From Chloranthus sessilifolius (taxonomy: Eukaryota; Streptophyta; Magnoliopsida; Chloranthales; Chloranthaceae), in the NCBI GenBank assembly GCA_021018995.1, contig CM037588.1, positions 151,113,725 to 151,177,724 of the forward strand: a stretch of 64,000 bases of DNA, in the 5' to 3' direction. Each line of letters opens with the position of its first letter. Position 1 is the first letter of the stretch. The position numbers were made by a program, and so were the translations under genes. A model generated the notes under the pieces. The model was not told the origin of the DNA. It saw only the letters and a program-made list of their open reading frames with translations, and made no database searches. Positions 39,813-61,185 of the stretch are shown here, one piece after another.

Positions 39813-40427
39813 AAAAAAAGATCTTACCCCTGGATTTGCTATATAAAAATCAAAATATCTCTAAAATACATATTAAGCTTAGATACTTCTATTTACACCA
39901 ACTAAATCTCTAAACACACACACCTTAAAAAATTATTAGGGAACCTTCATTCACACCATCTGTTTACTAAAAGAGCCCAATTAATGATATCCGGCACTGG
40001 AGGGCGCTAGCCCCAAAACATAATAACTTTGAAATAGATGATAGAGATTGTTTTACATCACAATCTTCCACAATTGATCTTGAGCTCATGAGCTTGTCAT
40101 CAAACTACCAATTTTGACGTGATGTGGCATAGATCCCAGAAAAGTGACCCAAAAATTATGTGGCACAGATTTCGCTCAAAGGTGATTTTTGGGTAATTTG
40201 TTTGGATGTATGCTAATCGTCAATGATCTTCATCATCCGATTCAAAGCAGTCAATAATTTTTTGCTCTAAGAGCCTTAGAGAGTCTATGGGTGCCCATAG
40301 AGGTACCCTTCTTGAAATGTCGTAAAGTAGTAGTCTATGGTATGGTAACAAAAAAATGCTGTTTTTGATATAAAAAAACCCCCTATCAAAAGCATTTTTG
40401 ACCGAAATATATGAAAAATTGTTTTAT
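39813..40427. other. Intergenic sequence up to the MULE
   Basis: No gene. A foldback MITE (40021-40254) and AT-rich flanks. The last nine bases, ttgttttat, are the left copy of the MULE target site. Confidence 0.6.
40021..40254. mobile_element. Foldback MITE
   Basis: The arms TTTGAAATAGATGATAGAGA and ATGATCTTCATCATCCGATT..CAAAGCAGTCAA are inverted. The centre has GGCATAGATCCC and ATTTTTGGGTAA-like sequence, as in the rest of the family. Confidence 0.6.
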
Positions 40428-40510
40428 GGGAAATTTACCTGACCGGCCCTGTTAGATGTACCTTTTACTGCAGAGGCCATGTAGTTTCACCTTTACCCAA
40501 ACCGACCTGC
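40428..40510 (+). repeat. MULE left terminal inverted repeat
   Basis: It runs GGGAAATTTACCTGACCGGC to about ACCCAAACCGACC and pairs with 50058-50140. Weaker similarity continues about 50 bp inward. MULE genes are usually transcribed from the TIRs. CAAATCTGTAAGTAAG near 40697-40712 looks like a 5'-UTR splice donor for the + strand gene, which would put array 1 in a leader intron. Confidence 0.85.
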
Positions 40511-40804
40511 TGTGCGCCGAGCCGTCGCCCGCCCTTAGGAAATGCACAAACTACCCCCAATGTAATAAATAGCCGCCTTTTTTTCAACTCTTCACTATTT
40601 ACCTTTTTTCTACTTTTTACTTTTTCGTTCGAAGTCGGTGAAGAGTCGGTGTCACTTCGTAGACGCTAGCGTTGAGTTCTACAATCTTCAAGCTACCAAA
40701 TCTGTAAGTAAGAATTAAAATTACCTTCCATCGCTGTAGATTTTTTTTTTCTCCTTTCGTTGGTGCACATTTTGACATAATTTATTAAGGTTATCCTATA
40801 TACA

Positions 40805-40960
40805 ATTGATATCGACTGTATATGTAATCGTTATCGATTACATAAAGAGTCGATATCGATTACTTATAGAGTCGATATCGATTGTATTTGTAGTCGTAAT
40901 CGACTATATAAATGGTCGATGACGACTCTATAAAAATTCGATATCGACTCTCTCTGTATA
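40805..40960. repeat. TCG-N4-CGA 22-bp repeat array 1
   Basis: About seven units, for example GTCGATATCGATTACTTATA and GTCGTAATCGACTATATAAA, at 22-bp spacing between the left TIR and the first coding frame. Confidence 0.9.
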
Positions 40961-41255
40961 TAAGTAATACCCATCTTATGAATATAATTATTACACATCA
41001 TATTAACTCCTCGATGCCATAATCCATAATAAATCATATGAGGTTTTATATTTATCTCAGCTGACGTTTAATTTCCTTCAATTTATTGCCAACTACCCTT
41101 TTGTAAAACCATTATGGCAAGTAAGCTTGGAAGGATGAGAAAATTTAATACAACGATTCGTATTCTACCATCTAGGCGCTTTAAATACAGGTTTAGTTCG
41201 TCCTTAGCAAAATGAGTCCCTATCATCCCTACTAGCCCATCTTTCCCTATGACAG

Positions 41256-41480
41256 ACGGTAATAAATGATAAAAAAACCAACTATAACCCAATCAAGTTC
41301 TTTCCAGTATGGGAGGACCCACCACCACTACCAGAACCAGATCCTCTACATTTCCAATGGGACGAATACGAGGAAGTGCAGAAAATTTTGGCGAAGGAAG
41401 AAAAGAAAGAGAAGAAGGAAGAAAAGAAAAAGAAGAAAAGAAAGAAAAAGAAAATTAAGACGGAACCACTCTCCTCTTAA
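41256..41480 (+). CDS. Possible terminal exon of a small Lys/Glu-rich MULE protein
   Basis: A frame of 75 codons follows a possible acceptor (ctatgacag at 41255) and ends at TAA 41478-41480. It reads as a Pro-rich acidic segment (PVWEDPPPLPEPDPLHFQW), then DEYEEVQKILAKEE and a long Lys/Arg/Glu tract. I recognise no family. The AATAAAACATTTT stretch after it (about 41585-41615) resembles that after the Ulp1 gene (about 46115-46155), so it may be a separate gene or a duplicated 3' end. No convincing start exon was found; confidence is low. Confidence 0.3.
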   Translation, partial: TVINDKKTNYNPIKFFPVWEDPPPLPEPDPLHFQWDEYEEVQKILAKEEKKEKKEEKKKKKRKKKKIKTEPLSS

Positions 41481-41639
41481 TCTTAGAAGCCTAGGACTGA
41501 TCTTTATCGAAGAATCTTCTATCGGACGTTGCTGTCAGAGTCTTAGTTTAGTGTGTTCAGATTTCATTTTTAACTGTAAATGAAATATTTTGAATGTAAA
41601 TAAAACATTTTGAGTCGATGGAGACTTCATAAAATATTT

Positions 41640-42000
41640 GAGTCTGTAAATTAAAAAATGACTCTAAATGTAATCGATATCGACTCGAATTGTAATCGTT
41701 ATCGAATCTATATGTAATCGATAACGACTATAAATAAAAACGATATCGATTACATTTAGAGTTGATATCGATTACATTTAGAGTCGATATCGATTACAAT
41801 TCGAGTCGATATCGATTACATGTAGAGTCGATATCGATTATATTTAGAGTTGTTATCGATTTTATTAATAGTCGTTATCGATTACATTTAGAGTCGATAT
41901 CGACTACATTTAGAGTCGATATCGATTACATTTAGAGTCGTTATCGATTACATATACAATCGATATCGACTCTAATGTAATCGATATCGGTTTTATATAT
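41640..42000. repeat. TCG-N4-CGA 22-bp repeat array 2
   Basis: About 16 units, the longest array and the closest to consensus (AGAGTCGATATCGATTACAT), ending about 90 bp before the ATG of the Ulp1-like gene. Confidence 0.92.
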
Positions 42001-42949
42001 TATAGTTCAGTTAACATTTAAACTATCCTTGTTAGTATGGGACTCAGTCCTTTCTTTTTTATTACAATTCATTTCAACTAGCTGTCAAGATGGTTGTACA
42101 CCGACTTGTTGCCAAGTGTTCCCCCAGTGCAATTTCGAATCTCTACGATAATGCTACCCTAACTTGAAAGAAGTTGCTGAGAGATTCAGTTTTCGGTGGA
42201 ATATTTCAAATGCCTAATAGTGTGAAATTTTTTTTCGATGTGATCGATGCGATGTTGACGTTTTGGGTTGAAAAAAACCACTTCCGAATCGGGAAGACTG
42301 ATGTCTATCTTCGAAAGTTAGACATTGCATTGATACTGGACCTTGCCGTAGTTGGCCTAGAAAAGTATACCTCGTCTGTTAAACCACTAGAAGAACAAAC
42401 CATTCGATACAAATATTTTCGTGGAATGCCTCCTGAAAAAATTCTTCGTTCTCACATAGATGTTGCAATTTGGAGAGCATAAAGTCATGAAAACTTAGTA
42501 AAGTTATCTCTTCTATATGTGTTATGTATATTTCTTTTTCCCGGGTCCCACCATCAACTGGCGGAAGACCACAACGACCTCATCGATGACGTCGAGAACT
42601 TTAACCAAACTCCGTGGGGTCTCCACATGTACCATGACCTGATAGAGTATATAATGAAGGCCGCGGCGAATAGAAAGACCGCCGAGATGGATAAAGCCCT
42701 TAAGACGTATAACACATATAGATACATATGTGTACTTCAATGGTGGGCTTACGAGATGCTGCCAGATATCTCGCCTTCCCAGATAAGCCTCGAGGTTCCT
42801 TTCCCACGACTTCTGAAATGGTCAGACAGGGTATAGTCAAGGATCAGAGGTTACACACGCGGACAGATGTTAGACAGCAAGGTATGAGGTCTATTAAATA
42901 ATTCAAATAAAATGAGTAGAGAGAACCGATGGCAATTAAAAAAAAAACT

Positions 42950-43235
42950 TGACAATTCATTCTAGAATCAATAACGAGTCATTATGGAATCGATAACGAC
43001 TTACTAAGTAGCCGATAACGATTCATTAAGTAATCGATAGCGATTCTGTAATGAATCGAGACCGACTATTTAATAAGTCGATAGCGATTCATTACAGAAT
43101 CGATAACGACTTACTAAGTAGTCAATACCGATTCATTAAGTAATCGATAGCGATGCAGTATAAAATCGATAACGATTTATTAAATAGTCGGTCTCGATTC
43201 ATTACAGAATCGATAGTGATTTATTAAATAGTCGA
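42950..43235. repeat. TCG-N4-CGA 22-bp repeat array 3 (intron 1)
   Basis: About 13 units, exactly 22 bp apart, with cores such as TCGATAACGA, TCGATAGCGA and TCGAGACCGA and spacers of the CTTACTAAGTAG type. It fills most of intron 1 of the Ulp1-like gene. Confidence 0.92.
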
Positions 43236-43934
43236 TACTTTGCATTTGGAATATATGATCAATTTAGTTTGTTATTTACCATGTTTTCTTTTCTTTCAAA
43301 AGGTTCGCGCTCCCCTCGTGCTTGTTGGCTTCGAATTAGAGATATCCGTCTTAAAAGAATATCTATGGGTTAAAAATGTCGTTGGGGGGAAGAGGAAAGA
43401 ACCTCATGAACTGGTCAAGAAAGCTGTGGAAGAGATGCGACCGAAGAAGAAGAGAAATTACATTCCGGTCGAGAATATTGACGAGGAAGAATGGGATGAC
43501 CAATCGACGTTGGACGAAGAATCATCCTCGAAAAAGGGCCCCGTCCATGCAGGTGTAGAGCGGCTGAGAACTAGGGGGGCCACGAAGAAGAGCCTAGCTG
43601 CGAAAGGGAGCCTAGCTGAATCGTCCACCTCCAATGAGTCGTTGTTGAGGAGGGTCGACGGTTTGGCGCTGGAGAACTTGAAGCTCACCCAAAGAGTGAG
43701 CGATTTGGAGGGAGAGAATAAGGTCCTGGCGAAATGTTGTGCTTCCATAGAGAAACTATACAACTCCTTGAATGAGCGGCTGAACTCAAGGGATGCAGAG
43801 TTGCAGAAGTTGAATCACTACAACTCGTTGATCAGAAAGGGCCAAGGGAATATAAAAGAACATCTTGAAAATTTATTAGACGCGAGACCTAAGGTATGTG
43901 TTGAAACGTGATATTTATGTGTTCATATTTGTTA

Positions 43935-44190
43935 ACAAAAATCGATATCGACTGTATATAGAGTCGATAACGATTATATTGATAATCATTATCGACTTTA
44001 TATAGAGTCGATATCGATTATATGTAAAATCGATAACGACTGTATATCTAATCGTTATCGACTATATATACAGTCAATATCGACTGTATATTGAATCGTT
44101 ATCGACTATATATACAATCGATAACGGCTGTATATGGAATCATTATCGACTATATATACACTCGATAACAATTAAATGTAAAATCGATTT
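43935..44190. repeat. TCG-N4-CGA 22-bp repeat array 4 (intron 2)
   Basis: About 12 units (TCGTTATCGACTATATATAC and variants) occupying intron 2. A few cores have lost a CG (TCATTATCGA, TCGATAACAA). Confidence 0.92.
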
Positions 44191-44904
44191 GGACTTTTTA
44201 AAATATTTTGCACAATTATTTCGATGTTCAGGATGGCGGTATTGAGGAGCTGATATCGAAAGTGTGCGACACAATGGTCGATGAGAATCCATCAACTCCC
44301 CTGCATCAGGATCCTCCCACGGGTGAGGTGACGGCAGCTGCTGACGAGTAGCCTGGGACTCAAACCGATAAGGGTCCAGCTGGTGAAGAGCAAACCTCTT
44401 TCCAATTGCCTCACCAATAAATTGACCTTCGCTTAAGACCTAGGCAAGGGAAACTCATCAAAACAGTTGCCGTCAAACCTAGGACACAGCGAAGGATAGC
44501 GACTGTAAAAAAGCCTATAACCGAGAAGGCCATTGAAAGAAAAATTGCTGAGCCTGGACCGGTGACTGATGCTACCCCTGAGCCTGGGTCTACGGCTGAT
44601 GATGCTACTGTTGTGTTGACAGCGGAGCAGAAATACGCGCTAAAGATATGGAACAAGCCTGAGAAGGAGGACGAGTAAGTTATTCTTCCCAGGAACAAGC
44701 CTGAATCTTTCACTTTATTATTATAAATTTATAAATGTATTATGAAGATTAGTTACGTTGGCCTTTATTTATGTAGTGAATACGTAAGCATCGTCGGTAA
44801 CTAAACGTTGGTGGTGCAATCTTTCAGATGTTTGACGGGCACACAGTACATGGATAATTTTGTAAGTAAAGTAAAGCTATTGTAGGCACAAATAGATAAT
44901 TTAA

Positions 44905-45165
44905 AGCTCTCGACGACTCGAAATAGAGTCGTTATAGACTCTACAATAAATCGGTATCGATTCATTATATAATCGATGACGATGACTTATATAATCGTTA
45001 TCGACTTTACAATAAATCGGTATCAACTCATTTTATATTTGATGGCGATTATATATATAATCGTTATCGACTCTATAACGAATCGATATCGATTCATTGT
45101 AAAGTCGATAACGATTATTTTTATAATCGTCATCGACTATAAAATGAGTCGATACCGATTATTTA
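44905..45165. repeat. TCG-N4-CGA 22-bp repeat array 5 (intron 4)
   Basis: About 12 units in intron 4, with spacers ATTATATAATCG and TTTACAATAAATC-like. The short introns 3, 5 and 6 (153, 76 and 74 bp) have no array. Confidence 0.9.
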
Positions 45166-46174
45166 ACTCTAACTGCATATTTAACTCTAATTGCTTTGGT
45201 TTCAGATTATGGGTGCCTACCTGAGACACTTGGAAGTAATTGATGATGATATTCATCCTGATGTAAAGAACAAAAGCTTCATTATGAGCCCTACTACTCT
45301 GATGTACATGGGCTTTGAACTGAACGATTTCAACAAGTTCCTTCTCGCTAAAAAAATATATGAAGAATCGTTCGAGAGTCAAATTAAACGGTGGGCTGCT
45401 TATAAACAAGAACAGAGCCAAGGCAAGAAGCCAATGGAATTTTTTTTCTTCAATCAGTTTCAGAATTTGTGGGTTCACGAGTGCAGCACAGTATGCTTCT
45501 AACCTCTATAATTTTTCTTTATAATTTTTCTATCATACCCTTTGAGATTATATTGCTTTTTGGTAGATATTTATGCCAATTCATTCACAACAACCATTAC
45601 ACTGGGTGCTTGCGATCGTGAAGGTAGTCGAACGATCGATAATGGTCGTCGACCCTATATTTAATAGGCTCTCTAAGAAAAGATATTCGACCTAATTAAA
45701 AACGTTGGTAAGATATTTTGCTTAGCATATCTTTCATCATTGTTAGCTTAGCATATCTGACATTCCTCTATTTTGAAGCAGACCCAATACCTTTTCGCGG
45801 TTTCATATTCGTACGGTGACTCCATTGCACTGAACACGAAGACCTATCCTTGGTCATCTAGTGACTGCCGGGTCAAAGCCCTTCCCCGACAGACCAATTA
45901 GAGTGATTGTGGTGTGTTTGTGGTGAAGTATGTGGAGTACTTCATGTCGGGAAAGAAATTTGACTTCGCGTAATCAGATATGGATAGGATCAGGACAGAA
46001 ATTGGTCATACACTAGCGACATACATCGGCAATGGGGGAGGAGACTGGAGGAGGACGACAAAGAGGAGGAGGCGCAGCAATAGTGTGGTTGTAAATGTAA
46101 ATGACACATTTTTTGTAAATAAAATATTTTTAATATAATTGAAACATTTTTTAAGTAGTAGTGGTTATAATGTA

Positions 46175-46455
46175 GAATAGAAGTAATCGATAACGACTTT
46201 ATTTAGAGTCGCTATCGACTTTATTTCGAGTCGTTATCGACTATATAAATAATTGATATCGATTCTAAAATGAATCGATATCAACTTTATAGAAAGTCGA
46301 TGGTGATTCTGAATAGAGTCGCTATCGATTATTTATATAGTCGATGGCTACTCTGTATAGAGTTGCTATCGATTATACATATAGTCGATGACGACTCTAT
46401 AAATAATCGGCAATGACTATATATACAATCATCAACGACTATATATACAGTCACT
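46175..46455. repeat. TCG-N4-CGA 22-bp repeat array 6 (between convergent genes)
   Basis: About 13 units lying between the 3' ends of the two converging MULE genes. Core variants include TCGCTATCGA, TCGATGGCTA and TCGATGACGA. Confidence 0.9.
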
Positions 46456-46789
46456 GACATCTCATTTGTACATTCTTGGTTGCATGTTTATGTGTAACTG
46501 TACGGTAAAATTATAACTATTACGAATAAAAAAAATCTAGAATCTGAATTTCTGAGCAAATATATATTCTCGCTTACATTCCATCTATCTTTATTAAAAA
46601 TATACACCATCAACCCATCGGTCCTACTGCCGTGCAACTCCTGCGATTGTGACCATATTCACTGCACCTGCTACACTGTAGGGACCTAACCTCACCCTTA
46701 GACCTTATCCTTCTCTTTCTCGGACGGCCGGCTTGCTTTCGACAATTATAGGGTGGTCTCACTTTTATATTTTCAGGGAGTTGCTTTGC

Positions 46790-49216
46790 TTAGAGCTTCC
46801 ATTGGCTTTTATCGAGGGTGGGAAGCCATTGCTCGCCGTATGTTTGTCTAAAGTAAGCGGTGAAAAACCACTTCTCACAGAAGTTATGGTAGTCGTAATT
46901 TCTCCGATTGATGGTCGTCACGGCATGAGAGCAAGGCAAGCCATGAATGTGCCAACGGCGGCAACTACACGTCTTGTGTTCCAAGTCGACGTGATGAATG
47001 AAATTTTTGAAGTTGACTTGGAATTGATCGCGCCCGTATGGTTGAGCTCTCTTTCTACCGGCCCATTGCAACACCTTCTTCATATGCTCGTCTGCTTTCA
47101 GGCAGAGGAGGGTGGTCCATTTCTCAGATATCTATCTGCGCTTTTAAAAATGATCGACGACTTTCTCTCTAGTAGTTCTAATTAAGTCGATAATTGGTCT
47201 CTCTCGAGCTATCTTTAGTACGCTGTTTAAGCTTTCGGCATTATTCGTAGTCAGAGAATCGTACTGCCTTCCTTCTATATGTGCACGTGCCGAATGCTTC
47301 AGGTCTATTTTTGAAATATACTGTACGGCCTGAGGATCAACAGGATCTTTCTTCATTTCGTTCATAAAATAATCAAATCTCTCTACTGAATATGCACGCG
47401 CAACTTTTCACCATAGACCCTTCACATTGTTCTTGGGATACTTGTGTGCCAAATTTTGTGTCATATGTTGCATGCAGTAGTTGTGATATGCGTTAGGGAA
47501 GATATGTTTCACTGCATTTATTAAACCCTTCGACCTATCAGTGATAAAAATGAAATCTTCGTTAAACCCACCGATCACGAACGCACCTACCCATTCAAAA
47601 AACCACATCCACGTATCCTCTTCTTCTAACTCGACGACGGCAAATGCTAACGGTAATATATGACTATTACCGTCTTGCGCTGAAGCGATAAGTAGGATAC
47701 CTTCGAAACATCCTCGTAGGTGTGTGCCGTCTACAAGCAATATGCGATGAAGTGTATTGTGGTAGCTTCCGATGCACGGGCCAAAACTCTAAAAATATCT
47801 TTGGAACTTACCGTCAAGTGTAAGTTGAAAGGATGCTTGTACATTAGGATCTACCCTCTTCATCTCCTTCACGTAGGCCGATAGATCCACAAATTATCCT
47901 TTCCAACTGCCTCTAATATCATCAAGGACAAGTTCTTTTCCCCTCCAAGCCTTTGCATATGATATTTGCACATTATAATCTTTTGTAATATCAAATATTA
48001 TCGACGTCAGTGTGTAGTCGAATCCTTCCATAAGTTTATCCAGTACATAGTTGGCTATGAAGGAGATTGTTGCATTACGGTGACCGTGCGGTCCGATCTT
48101 AGCAGCCCTCCATGTGTGAGTACTATTGAATGTCTTGATTTGGAAAGAATCGAGCGCAGTCAATTTAGACGCATGTATTCACCACGAACAATCGGGTTCG
48201 TAGCATCTGGCTGTTACTCAATGACTAGCGGTTTTCACAGGTCGAATTTGAAAGTTTTTCTCCACCGCGTGCTCTTTCAATGCTCTTTAAAATATTTGTT
48301 TGTCTCGGAAGATCTCTCCAACTTTAAACGTCTAATTCCGATATTCAGTTTCCACCTCTTCATCGGAGGAGTCGCCCAATGTCTCTGACACTTCGTAATC
48401 TCCGTCTACTATGGGATTATCAATGTCTTTCATAAAAATTTTCAGATCCTCTTTTATAAACCCATCCGGTTCGCTTTCATAATCTTCTTCTAAGGTATCT
48501 TCATTAGTGGGTTGAGGATGACTACGCCATTCACTAGCGGTGTTCTCAGGTGGTTGACTAGATCCTTCACCAAAGGGGTTATGATGTGATTGATTAGATC
48601 CTTCACCGAATCGATAATGGCGTGGTTGACTAGGCCATTCACCGAAGGGGTGCTCATATGTATGGACATGGGATTGGGTTTCTCCGATAATTCCCATCGA
48701 TGGCATGGTAGAACATAATTCGTGAATAAACCAAGTTGTCCATCCACCGAAAAAGATATGACTGAAATCGTCGGTATCCACCGCCCGTTTTGAAGTATAG
48801 TCTAACCATTGACTACATTGTTGTGACCCATGCATGTATTTTAGTGGGTCATCATACGATTCAATCGGAGCATCGTTTAAATTAAAAGTTGCTTTCCTGG
48901 CAGTCATGTTCGCCGTAATATCGCTGTCATCGCCTAACGGGACGGTATCGTATACAGTTTCATCCTCAAACTTACATGACTGAAATTCAGTCCTGCCAAG
49001 ATCTACTTGTTCAGCTTCGACTCGGAAGGATGACTGTTCCTTAATGATGAATACCTTTATGACGTCCACCTCGGATCTATAAAACGTAAATAGGGTGGCC
49101 AAATCATCAGTGTCCAAAATGTCGGCAATCACAAAGGTATTCACTATCTTCATATGAAACTTTGTGGAAATTGTTTCATCCGTCCTCGTAAAACTGACAG
49201 CAGACATTTGCCTCAT
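46790..49216 (-). pseudogene. MuDR-type MULE transposase, single exon, nonsense-broken
   Basis: One frame runs from ATG 49216 to TAA 46790 (808 residues), with nine in-frame stops and no frameshift. The N-terminal third is acidic, with repeated FGEGSSQP-like units (about residues 205-230). The MuDR N-terminal domain follows (VEKNFQIRPVKTASH, then KLTALDSFQIKTFN, FDITKDYNVQISYAKAWRGK). The DDE catalytic core shows D496 in LLVDGTHLRG, D560 in FITDRSKGL with CMQH after it, and E661 in TNNAESLNSVLK. A SWIM zinc finger (CSCRRWHIHGLPCSH, residues 750-765) closes it. Stops stand where relatives have Arg or Trp (for example in place of R in W-IHAS and of W in LW-KVARAY). Before decay it would have cut and inserted the element at its TIRs. 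Confidence 0.92.
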
Positions 49217-49394
49217 GAATTGTTCATAAGAAATACTTGTTTAAATGTTAATAACCCTCCTCCGGCCACCTTTATACAAGCCATCATCGTTTACAAGAAG
49301 GCCATCATAGTGACAAAGAAGAGGAATCCTCACGTCTGTCATCGTCTGTTTAAGAATGAGAAGGAAGGGGTCATAAGACTGATGAAACAAAAAA

Positions 49395-49640
49395 GAAAGA
49401 ACTCTATATACAATCGATTATATATACAATCGATATCGACTGTATATATAATCGATATCGACTGTACAATCGATATCGATTCTATATACAATCGGTATTG
49501 ATTGTATATATAATCGTCATCGACTTTATAGACAATCGTTATCGATTAAATATAGAGTCGATAACGATTATATTTGCAATCGATATTGACTGTATATAAA
49601 GTCGATGACGATTATATTTGCAATCGAGATATATACTTTT
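49395..49640. repeat. TCG-N4-CGA 22-bp repeat array 7 (upstream of transposase)
   Basis: About 11 units (ATCGATATCGACTGTATATA and variants) 180 bp upstream of the transposase ATG. A possible leader donor (GACGCGAGGTATCTTAC on the - strand, near 49795) would place it in a 5'-UTR intron, mirroring array 1. Confidence 0.9.
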
Positions 49641-50057
49641 CAAAAAATGATCCAAGGATACAAAAACTTTCTTATACTGCATGAATAGGAGATCCTAACA
49701 AACTGAAAATGTGGACCAATAAACTTAAATTATTTCTTATATTGCCCCATTAAGAGACCCTAATAAACTAAAAATGAGGTTTATGTAAGATACCTCGCGT
49801 CGCAAGGGCAAACTGCAGGGTCTTCTTGTCACAATGGAGAAATGTACAACTTCTTCTCTCAAGCCTCAGTTTTCTTCTTCGAAATAGCAGAACGGAGAAG
49901 ATCAGACTAAGGAAGAAGACGTCGTCACCTGTGACCTGACCCACCTCTAACTTTTTAGTAGATTAAAATGAGGAAGAAGATGCTTTGTGGGTTAAAGAAA
50001 GTCATAGAAGGGGGTAATTTGGACTTTTTACTCTCCATAGGGTCGGTTAGGCTTGGA
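49641..50057 (-). other. Probable transposase 5' leader region
   Basis: Non-coding sequence between array 7 and the right TIR. On the - strand it has a C/T-rich leader-like stretch (49850-49930) and a possible donor near 49795. No protein frame is seen. Confidence 0.4.
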
Positions 50058-50140
50058 GCTGGTCGGTTTGGGTAAAGGTGAAACTATATGGCCTCTGAAG
50101 TAAAAGGTGTATCTGACAGGGCCAATCAGGTAAATTTCCC
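50058..50140 (-). repeat. MULE right terminal inverted repeat
   Basis: The inverse of the left TIR: GGTCGGTTTGGGTAAAGG to CAGGTAAATTTCCC, followed at once by the second ttgttttat target copy. Confidence 0.9.
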
Positions 50141-50149
50141 TTGTTTTAT

Positions 50150-60254: not shown

Positions 60255-61185
60255 ATAACATCAAATTCCTTAGGATTTGATCATCATAGGTTATTTTGTG
60301 ATGATTTCACCATTAGATCATGTAATGATCTTATAATACGATCATTTGACGTAAAGTTATTGAATCCACCGTTGGATTTGACCAAAATCATGAGATTTGA
60401 TCAATACATAGTAAATCCACCGTTGGATCTTATTATGGTCTTGTATTATGACTGTTTGGCTAAAAATCAACTAGTTCACTGTTAGATTTGACCAAAATCA
60501 AAAGATTTGCTCAACATATAACAAACCCACTGTTGGATCTCGTTACGATTTCATATTATAATCGTCTAACCAAAAGTCGACAAGTCCATCTTTGGATTTA
60601 CCAAAATTACAAGATTTGGTCAGCATGTAATAAATCTATTGTAGGATCTCATTACGATCTCGTATTATGATCGTTTGATTAAAAGTCAACGAGTCCACTA
60701 TTGGATTCTACCAAACTCACAAGATTTGATCAACATGTAATAAATCCACTGTTGAATCTCGTTATGATCTTGTATTATGATCGTTTGACCAAAATTACAA
60801 GATTTGGTCAACATGCACTAAATTCGTCATTGGATCTCGTATTATGATCGTTTGACAAAAAGTCAATAAGTCTACCGTTGGATTTGACCAAAGTCACAAT
60901 ATTTGGTCATGTAATAAATCTACCAGTGTTTCTCGTTACGATTTTGTATTATGATCGTTTGACCAAAATCAATGAGTCCACCGTTGGATTTGACCAAAGT
61001 CATAAGATTTGGCCAACATGTAATAAATCCACCGTTAGATCTCTTATTAAGATCGTTTGATTAAAAGTCAACGAGTCTACCATTGGATTTGACTAAAATC
61101 ACAAGATTTGATCAACATGTAATAAATTGACCATTAGATCTCGTATTATGATCGTTTGACTAAAAGTCAACAAATCCATTGTTGA
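60255..61185. repeat. Tandem repeat of about 110 bp, eight degenerate units
   Basis: Units share CCACCGTTGGATTTGACCAA, then CAAGATTTGGTCAACATG, TAATAAATCC, GGATCTCGTTACGATC, GTATTATGATCGTTTGACC and AAAAGTCAACGAGTC. Starts are near 60370, 60483, 60593, 60703, 60879, 60982 and 61083, with one short unit near 60790. A GATCGT/ACGATC pair recurs in each unit. Confidence 0.85.

Follow-up and report, generated by a model that had tools for sequence, protein, structure and literature searches.

The stretch analysed here (the window) comprises 64,000 nucleotides of the Chloranthus sessilifolius genome (GenBank assembly GCA_021018995.1, contig CM037588.1, positions 151,113,725 to 151,177,724). At 40428-50140 it contains a Mutator-like element (MULE) with a MURA transposase gene and a gene for a DUF1985-like/ULP1-protease protein, both broken in the window copy. 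Seven arrays of a 22-bp unit with the core TCG-N4-CGA occupy its non-coding DNA. By analogy with the VANC proteins of Arabidopsis VANDAL elements, these arrays are probably sites recognised by the DUF1985-ULP1 protein that the element encodes, forming a self-recognition and anti-silencing system in a MULE that bears terminal inverted repeats (TIRs).

Arrays in the non-coding compartments of the element

The window contains 58 exact TCG-N4-CGA cores. Within the element there are 51, compared with a mean of 2.8 and a maximum of 8 in 200 dinucleotide shuffles of the element. Neighbouring cores lie exactly 22 bp apart in 32 cases (shuffle mean 0.005). Chaining of the cores yielded seven arrays with 7, 14, 12, 12, 11, 12 and 10 units, and all steps measure 22 bp except for one 18-bp step in array 7. 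The total of 78 units agrees with the initial annotation, which had counted about 80 and placed them in the larger non-coding compartments (Table 1). Arrays 3, 4 and 5 occupy the three long introns (421, 338 and 344 bp). Their absence from exons and from the three short introns (153, 76 and 74 bp) was likewise confirmed, as no exact core was found in either in the window element. The rest of the window is also free of arrays: seven exact cores lie outside the element, none of them 22 bp from another.

The 22-bp unit

The consensus A-R-T-C-G-N-Y-R-N-C-G-A-Y-T was derived from 1175 units (678 distinct) in 21 copies of the element. Units were detected by a match of at least four of the six bases of TCG...CGA, so the conservation of those six is partly due to construction. 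Among the distinct units, the T and A of TCG/CGA are 97-98% conserved. The flanking A (position -1) and T (position 12), neither of which was used for detection, are conserved at 98% and 94%, and the eight spacer positions at 37-82%. Pairwise comparison of the window units gave 77% identity for the 14-bp core versus 48% for the 8-bp spacer. The window units have 28 core mismatches, 20 of which are transitions at CpG.

The unit was first described as palindromic, which is too strong. Its outer ten positions are dyad-symmetric; inside, one half is usually TCGA, with variation allowed in the second. Of the 678 distinct units, 651 have TCGA in one or both halves, and the 27 units with neither compare with a shuffle mean of 93 and a minimum of 71. 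The unit counts are not independent, since many of the units have orthologues in other copies; the half-site rule is visible in the window alone, where 2 of 77 units lack TCGA in both halves and 9.8 are expected by shuffling. When units are oriented by their TCGA half, neighbours alternate 300 times (shuffle mean 214, largest 243). The alternation is clearest in arrays 4 and 6, and array 3 runs nearly all in one direction.

Conservation in other copies of the element

A genome search with the left 133 bp of the element gave 2293 first-look candidates. Forty were scored, including the window, all with E-values of 3e-42 or better. Twenty of the 39 other matches were sampled, giving 21 copies with the window. 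An array was counted as present with at least four units, in copies with both flanking segments matched, window included. On this basis, arrays 3 to 7 were present in every copy counted and arrays 1 and 2 in nearly all (Table 1). The copies that fell short (L027 and L032 for array 1, L031 for array 2) still have two or three exact cores. For each of the three short introns, an array was seen in 0 of 16 copies. The arrays thus keep to their compartments, a point that the initial annotation had raised for checking, and its concern that other copies might lack them was refuted in this sample. A motif adrift in the exons was considered and rejected: the matched coding and TIR sequence of the 21 copies holds seven exact cores in 89,114 bases.

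Target-site duplications (TSDs) of 9 bp were found in the ten copies with both ends, using the best-scoring borders, eight of them exact and two with one mismatch. The sampled copies are decayed. MURA is readable in 16 of the 21, each time with at least two stops, and the only readable stop-free ULP frame, that of copy L018, has frame-breaking indels. No intact copy was found among the 21 examined. The median dN/dS is 0.51 for ULP (15 copies) and 0.56 for MURA (12 copies).

Arrays in transposons rather than in a satellite

Across the 2.17-Gb genome, 39,345 occurrences of the pair motif were counted, against 144 of a reversed control. Starting from the motif, seven clusters were found within the initial 3.01 Mb of C1, each sampled at least in part. 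Six of the seven lie in MULEs according to TIR or gene matches, three of them non-autonomous. A genome-wide satellite is rejected on this sample, and the view of the arrays as bound to elements is upheld. The cluster L001-L004 is one element whose best MURA match has 62% identity over 169 residues. In L037, the best ULP match has 54% identity over 265 residues, and arrays occur in the same four places in the stretch read. L040 likewise lies in a MULE by TIR or gene matches. For L039, there was no TIR or gene match within 1.6 kb.

Among the non-autonomous elements, L035 (L035:3934-4913) has two arms, each about 300 bp long and 84% alike, with nothing between them but A/T runs and an array that is in part an inverted repeat. 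L036 (L036:1105-2482) has long TIRs around an array, with part of the left end lost, and contains repeated TIR pieces and microsatellites beside the array. L038 (L038:301-1154) has long TIRs, and its arms enclose just two exact cores. L035 carries, where its TIR ends on the inner side, GGCGATATCGCC and near copies of it, which fit GCG-N4-CGC, the core of the sibling family described next.

A sibling DUF1985 family with another core

A profile search of the genome with PF09331 gave 4046 first-look candidates; 150 were scored, all over the cut-off. The best 17 of these 150 scored matches have no internal stop. Eleven DUF1985 loci were read in short stretches. One of them, L044, has a DUF1985 match of 57 bits, over the cut-off, and resembles the window gene (32% over 295 residues; E 4e-38 in a tblastn comparison with seven loci). 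It carries an array of GCG-N4-CGC in 21-bp steps, in the intron after the exon ending in the LLKW... stretch, an intron equated by eye with intron 1 of the window gene (array 3). The 2-kb stretch of L044 contains 12 GCG-N4-CGC matches with at most one mismatch, eight of them in the array; the shuffle mean is 4.07, and none of 200 shuffles reached 12.

Five further loci (L047-L051), picked for the profile range of L044 and belonging to 14 loci initially selected, all have a GCG-N4-CGC array at the same place. At all six loci a GCG chain with 21-bp steps scores best (5.8-15.6), a shuffle control having been run for L044 alone. The chains of L047 and L049 are the weakest, and Tandem Repeats Finder reports nothing there. 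Arrays of the GCG type were therefore counted in six of six loci of the L044 group (two weak) and in six of the 11 DUF1985 loci overall. To this extent, a different core in a sibling, which the initial annotation had suggested looking for, was observed in one diverged DUF1985 gene family.

Relation to known systems

VANC anti-silencing has been worked out in Arabidopsis (PMC5735166). VANC21 and VANC6 are DUF1985 proteins, and short tandem-repeat motifs occur in introns, between genes and in the non-coding DNA of the ends, with different motifs in VANDAL sister families (PMC5735166). Like VANDAL21/Hiun with VANC21 and VANDAL6 with VANC6, the window element is a MULE in which a DUF1985-like protein is encoded beside the transposase, motif repeats lie in non-coding DNA, and the motif differs in a sister family (PMC5735166). 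The proposed likeness in layout is sound. VANDAL21 carries three genes (PMC5735166), and the window element has a possible third open reading frame (ORF). The motifs differ: the window unit is a CpG-bearing quasi-dyad with a 22-bp step, whereas those of VANDAL are the one-way YAGTATTAY or AGTTGTCC/AC (PMC5735166). Unlike VANDAL21 and VANDAL6, the window element also has often alternating neighbours, 84-bp TIRs about 90% alike and a ULP1 domain in its protein.

A ULP1 domain has been reported in some Arabidopsis VANC genes, and recognition is family-specific (PMC13317346). The window element also resembles the Ulp1-carrying MULEs (Kaonashi/KIU-type) of Arabidopsis, grapevine, melon and rice in having this domain; in Arabidopsis such genes are described as VANC genes, and the MULEs are non-TIR, in contrast to the TIR-bearing window element (PMC13317346). 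The part of PMC13317346 available describes no array of the TCG-N4-CGA type for Ulp1-carrying MULEs. In the VANC, VANDAL, DUF1985 and Ulp1 MULE literature, judged by title and start of abstract and with most subscription papers outside this scope, no earlier report of TCG-N4-CGA arrays was found. Nor did 8000 scored candidates of a 5.8-billion database include protein relatives at E 0.001. The MuDR DNA-binding, MULE and SWIM domains and the 9-bp target duplications are shared with MuDR-type TIR MULEs. The second gene of classical MuDR is not known to be related to DUF1985, whereas that of the window element is DUF1985-like.

The system had been suggested to be independent of VANC, which was not borne out. 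Because the DUF1985-like region (below the Pfam cut-off) and the ULP1 domain are common with VANC genes (PMC13317346 for the latter), a divergent branch of the VANC system is the more likely origin. The kind of system is known; the motif and the type of element represent a variant of it.

Function of the arrays

As far as sequence can tell, the arrays very likely serve as a protein-binding address. This function is the likeliest because of the constraint on the core, the fixed step, the fixed compartments and the travel of the arrays with non-autonomous elements. The likeness to VANC and the different core of the sibling gene make the DUF1985-ULP1 protein a likely reader of the address. That reading leads to loss of silencing is probable, by analogy with VANC.

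In such a system, dense and evenly spaced sites in every larger non-coding compartment would label the DNA as "self". The DUF1985-ULP1 protein of the family would bind the arrays as multivalent sites, as a dimer or pair. Once bound, it would remove silencing marks from the element and its non-autonomous kin and leave the host untouched, as VANC does on VANDAL. The ULP1 domain would perhaps take SUMO off silencing factors. A speculative and rather unlikely extension is that DUF1985-ULP1 proteins and dyad arrays form a whole family of address systems. Each lineage would have its own XCG-N4-CGX' core and step, the CpGs would let binding sense methylation (a self-label with an epigenetic switch), array-only non-autonomous elements would share the address, and de-SUMOylation would be the effector.

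Several observations weigh against a VANC-like role. The DUF1985 match of the window protein is weak (20.1 bits, E 6.4e-4, below the cut-off of 35.1), and that of the sibling L037 (29 bits) is below the cut-off too. In copy L025, a plant mobile domain scores higher than DUF1985 (33.4 versus 21.7 bits, both below cut-off). Arrays are missing at five of the 11 sampled DUF1985 loci: L041, L042, L043, L045 and L046 show neither a TCG core nor a tandem array of such kind in about 2 kb. Array-free DUF1985 families exist in this genome too. The GCG family was not traced to MULEs: near L044, no MURA-like match was found in a 600-bp stretch at the expected place. A genome-scale excess of GCGN4CGC-N11-GCGN4CGC was looked for and rejected, the motif being rarer than its reversed control (797 versus 3358). 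The half-site rule is looser in the motif-first relatives, where six of 43 exact NTAN cores have TCGA in neither half. Neighbouring units often alternate here, whereas VANC21 motifs face one way (PMC5735166). Finally, CpG transition decay in the core (6.9%) is nearly as high as the exon CpG rate (7.8-10.7%), a small difference that is biased by array detection. Rates this similar speak against lasting protection of these old copies, and long-term shielding of the arrays from methylation is not claimed. The decay is compatible with a system confined to periods when an intact copy is expressed, but gives no support for it.

Other functions were weighed. It is improbable that the arrays are internal accessory sites which load or synapse the element's own MURA transposase. 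They do move with the transposon and sit within TIR-bounded non-autonomous elements, but three of them are intronic and at least 2.5 kb from either end, and the matched TIRs of the 21 copies have no exact core. Moreover, the different core in an intron of the sibling DUF1985 gene links the choice of motif to that gene, although no transposase of the sibling family was observed.

Cis-regulatory sites (promoter, enhancer or insulator) for a host DNA-binding protein, amplified by the transposon, are a decidedly improbable explanation. A dyad site is typical of a dimeric protein, the arrays flank genes, and the 22-bp step is close to two helical turns. However, no host use was seen in the initial 3.01 Mb of C1, where six of the seven clusters are MULEs, the excess of the pair motif over its control fits a transposon motif, and the different core of the sibling family is not easily explained by a host factor.

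Neutral tandem repeats, expanding wherever selection tolerates non-coding DNA, would account for the confinement to compartments of sufficient length, the variable unit number (0-23 units in array 2) and growth through local duplications such as that in intron 1 of L018, but are highly improbable, as a neutral unit would drift or homogenise throughout instead of showing a sharp difference between core and spacer, the half-site rule holds in the window, and the arrays are retained in a relative with just 54% protein likeness.

Structure and genes of the element

The transposase domain matches (PF10551, PF03108 and PF04434) and the 9-bp TSD, within the 8-11 bp given for MULEs (PMC6446971), identify the element as a MULE. 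The TIRs of VANDAL elements are absent or degenerate (PMC10398659, PMC6446971), a description that the window element does not match with its TIR pair; some clade mates of VANDAL possess TIRs (PMC6446971). Feature coordinates are given in Table 1, in which arrays are delimited by the spans of their cores.

Table 1 Features of the MULE in the window; copies are those with at least four units among copies with both flanking segments matched
Feature	Position	Strand	Basis or remark	Copies with array
Whole MULE, 9713 bp	40428..50140	.	TIRs and TSD; matches of left 133 bp in genome	
TSD TTGTTTTAT, left copy, 9 bp	40419..40427	.	identical to 50141-50149	
TSD TTGTTTTAT, right copy, 9 bp	50141..50149	.	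read directly	
Left TIR, 84 bp	40428..40511	+	8 mismatches in 83 aligned columns versus right TIR	
Right TIR, 84 bp	50057..50140	-	alignment with left TIR	
Array 1, 7 units, 5' of small ORF	40806..40947	.	chaining	18/20
Possible small third ORF, lysine-rich end, out of frame in window copy	41115..41480	+	open for about 115 codons in sibling L037	
Array 2, 14 units, between small ORF and DUF1985-ULP1 gene	41674..41969	.	chaining	15/16
DUF1985-like/ULP1 gene, seven exons, at most 8 premature stops	42090..46139	+	GT/AG splice signals, reading frame, domain matches	
DUF1985-like/ULP1 exons	42090-42881, 43303-43893, 44232-44674, 44828-44861, 45206-45490, 45567-45707, 45782-46139	+		
Array 3, 12 units, intron 1	42968..43219	.	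chaining	17/17
Array 4, 12 units, intron 2	43942..44193	.	chaining	17/17
Array 5, 11 units, intron 4	44929..45158	.	chaining	16/16
Array 6, 12 units, between 3' ends of the two genes	46187..46438	.	chaining	16/16
MURA transposase, one exon, single frame throughout, 11 premature stops, no frameshift	46610..49342	-	frame; domains over cut-off	
Array 7, 10 units, 5' of transposase gene	49430..49633	.	chaining	11/11

The DUF1985-like/ULP1 frame has 880 codons, and its last premature stop, at 45971, is possibly the natural end. The protein has the DUF1985-like region and a Peptidase_C48 domain (4.4e-22), with weak matches of coiled-coil type in the part between them. In an alignment with SENP2 (1tgz), the catalytic His, Asp, Gln and Cys of this ULP1 domain are preserved. 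The read-through translation of MURA matches the MULE (PF10551, 9.8e-19), DBD_Tnp_Mut (PF03108, 2.1e-13) and SWIM (PF04434, 1.1e-8) domains. The two large genes contain no frameshift, although their premature stops number as many as 19 in total, a pattern that fits decay through base changes alone.

The region of the third ORF, with arrays 1 and 2 on either side, recurs in 15 copies of the family with 78-93% likeness across 300 bp or more. No codon-position bias of substitutions was found among the family copies, and the length of 58 of the 86 gaps is not divisible by three; the ORF may therefore not be coding in this family.

Two further observations concern sequence near the arrays and elsewhere in the window. 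Similar 3' sequence immediately precedes array 2 (41565-41613) and array 6 (46096-46152), and in 13 of 20 copies the end of exon 7 also has a match at array 2 or directly ahead of it; a duplication of gene ends or of entire array compartments may lie behind this. A tandem repeat with a unit of about 100-110 bp lies at 60365-61171 and is unlike the 22-bp arrays.

Significance

The element looks like a high-copy relative of the VANC system in a plant genome of 2.17 Gb, residing in a TIR-bearing MULE and having a sharply defined dyad site. The TCG and GCG arrays with their respective DUF1985 proteins would be natural specificity pairs for the study of the motif-reading residues, the effect of CpG methylation and the role of ULP1. 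If the proposed function is true, array-bearing non-autonomous elements are predicted to be de-silenced in trans.

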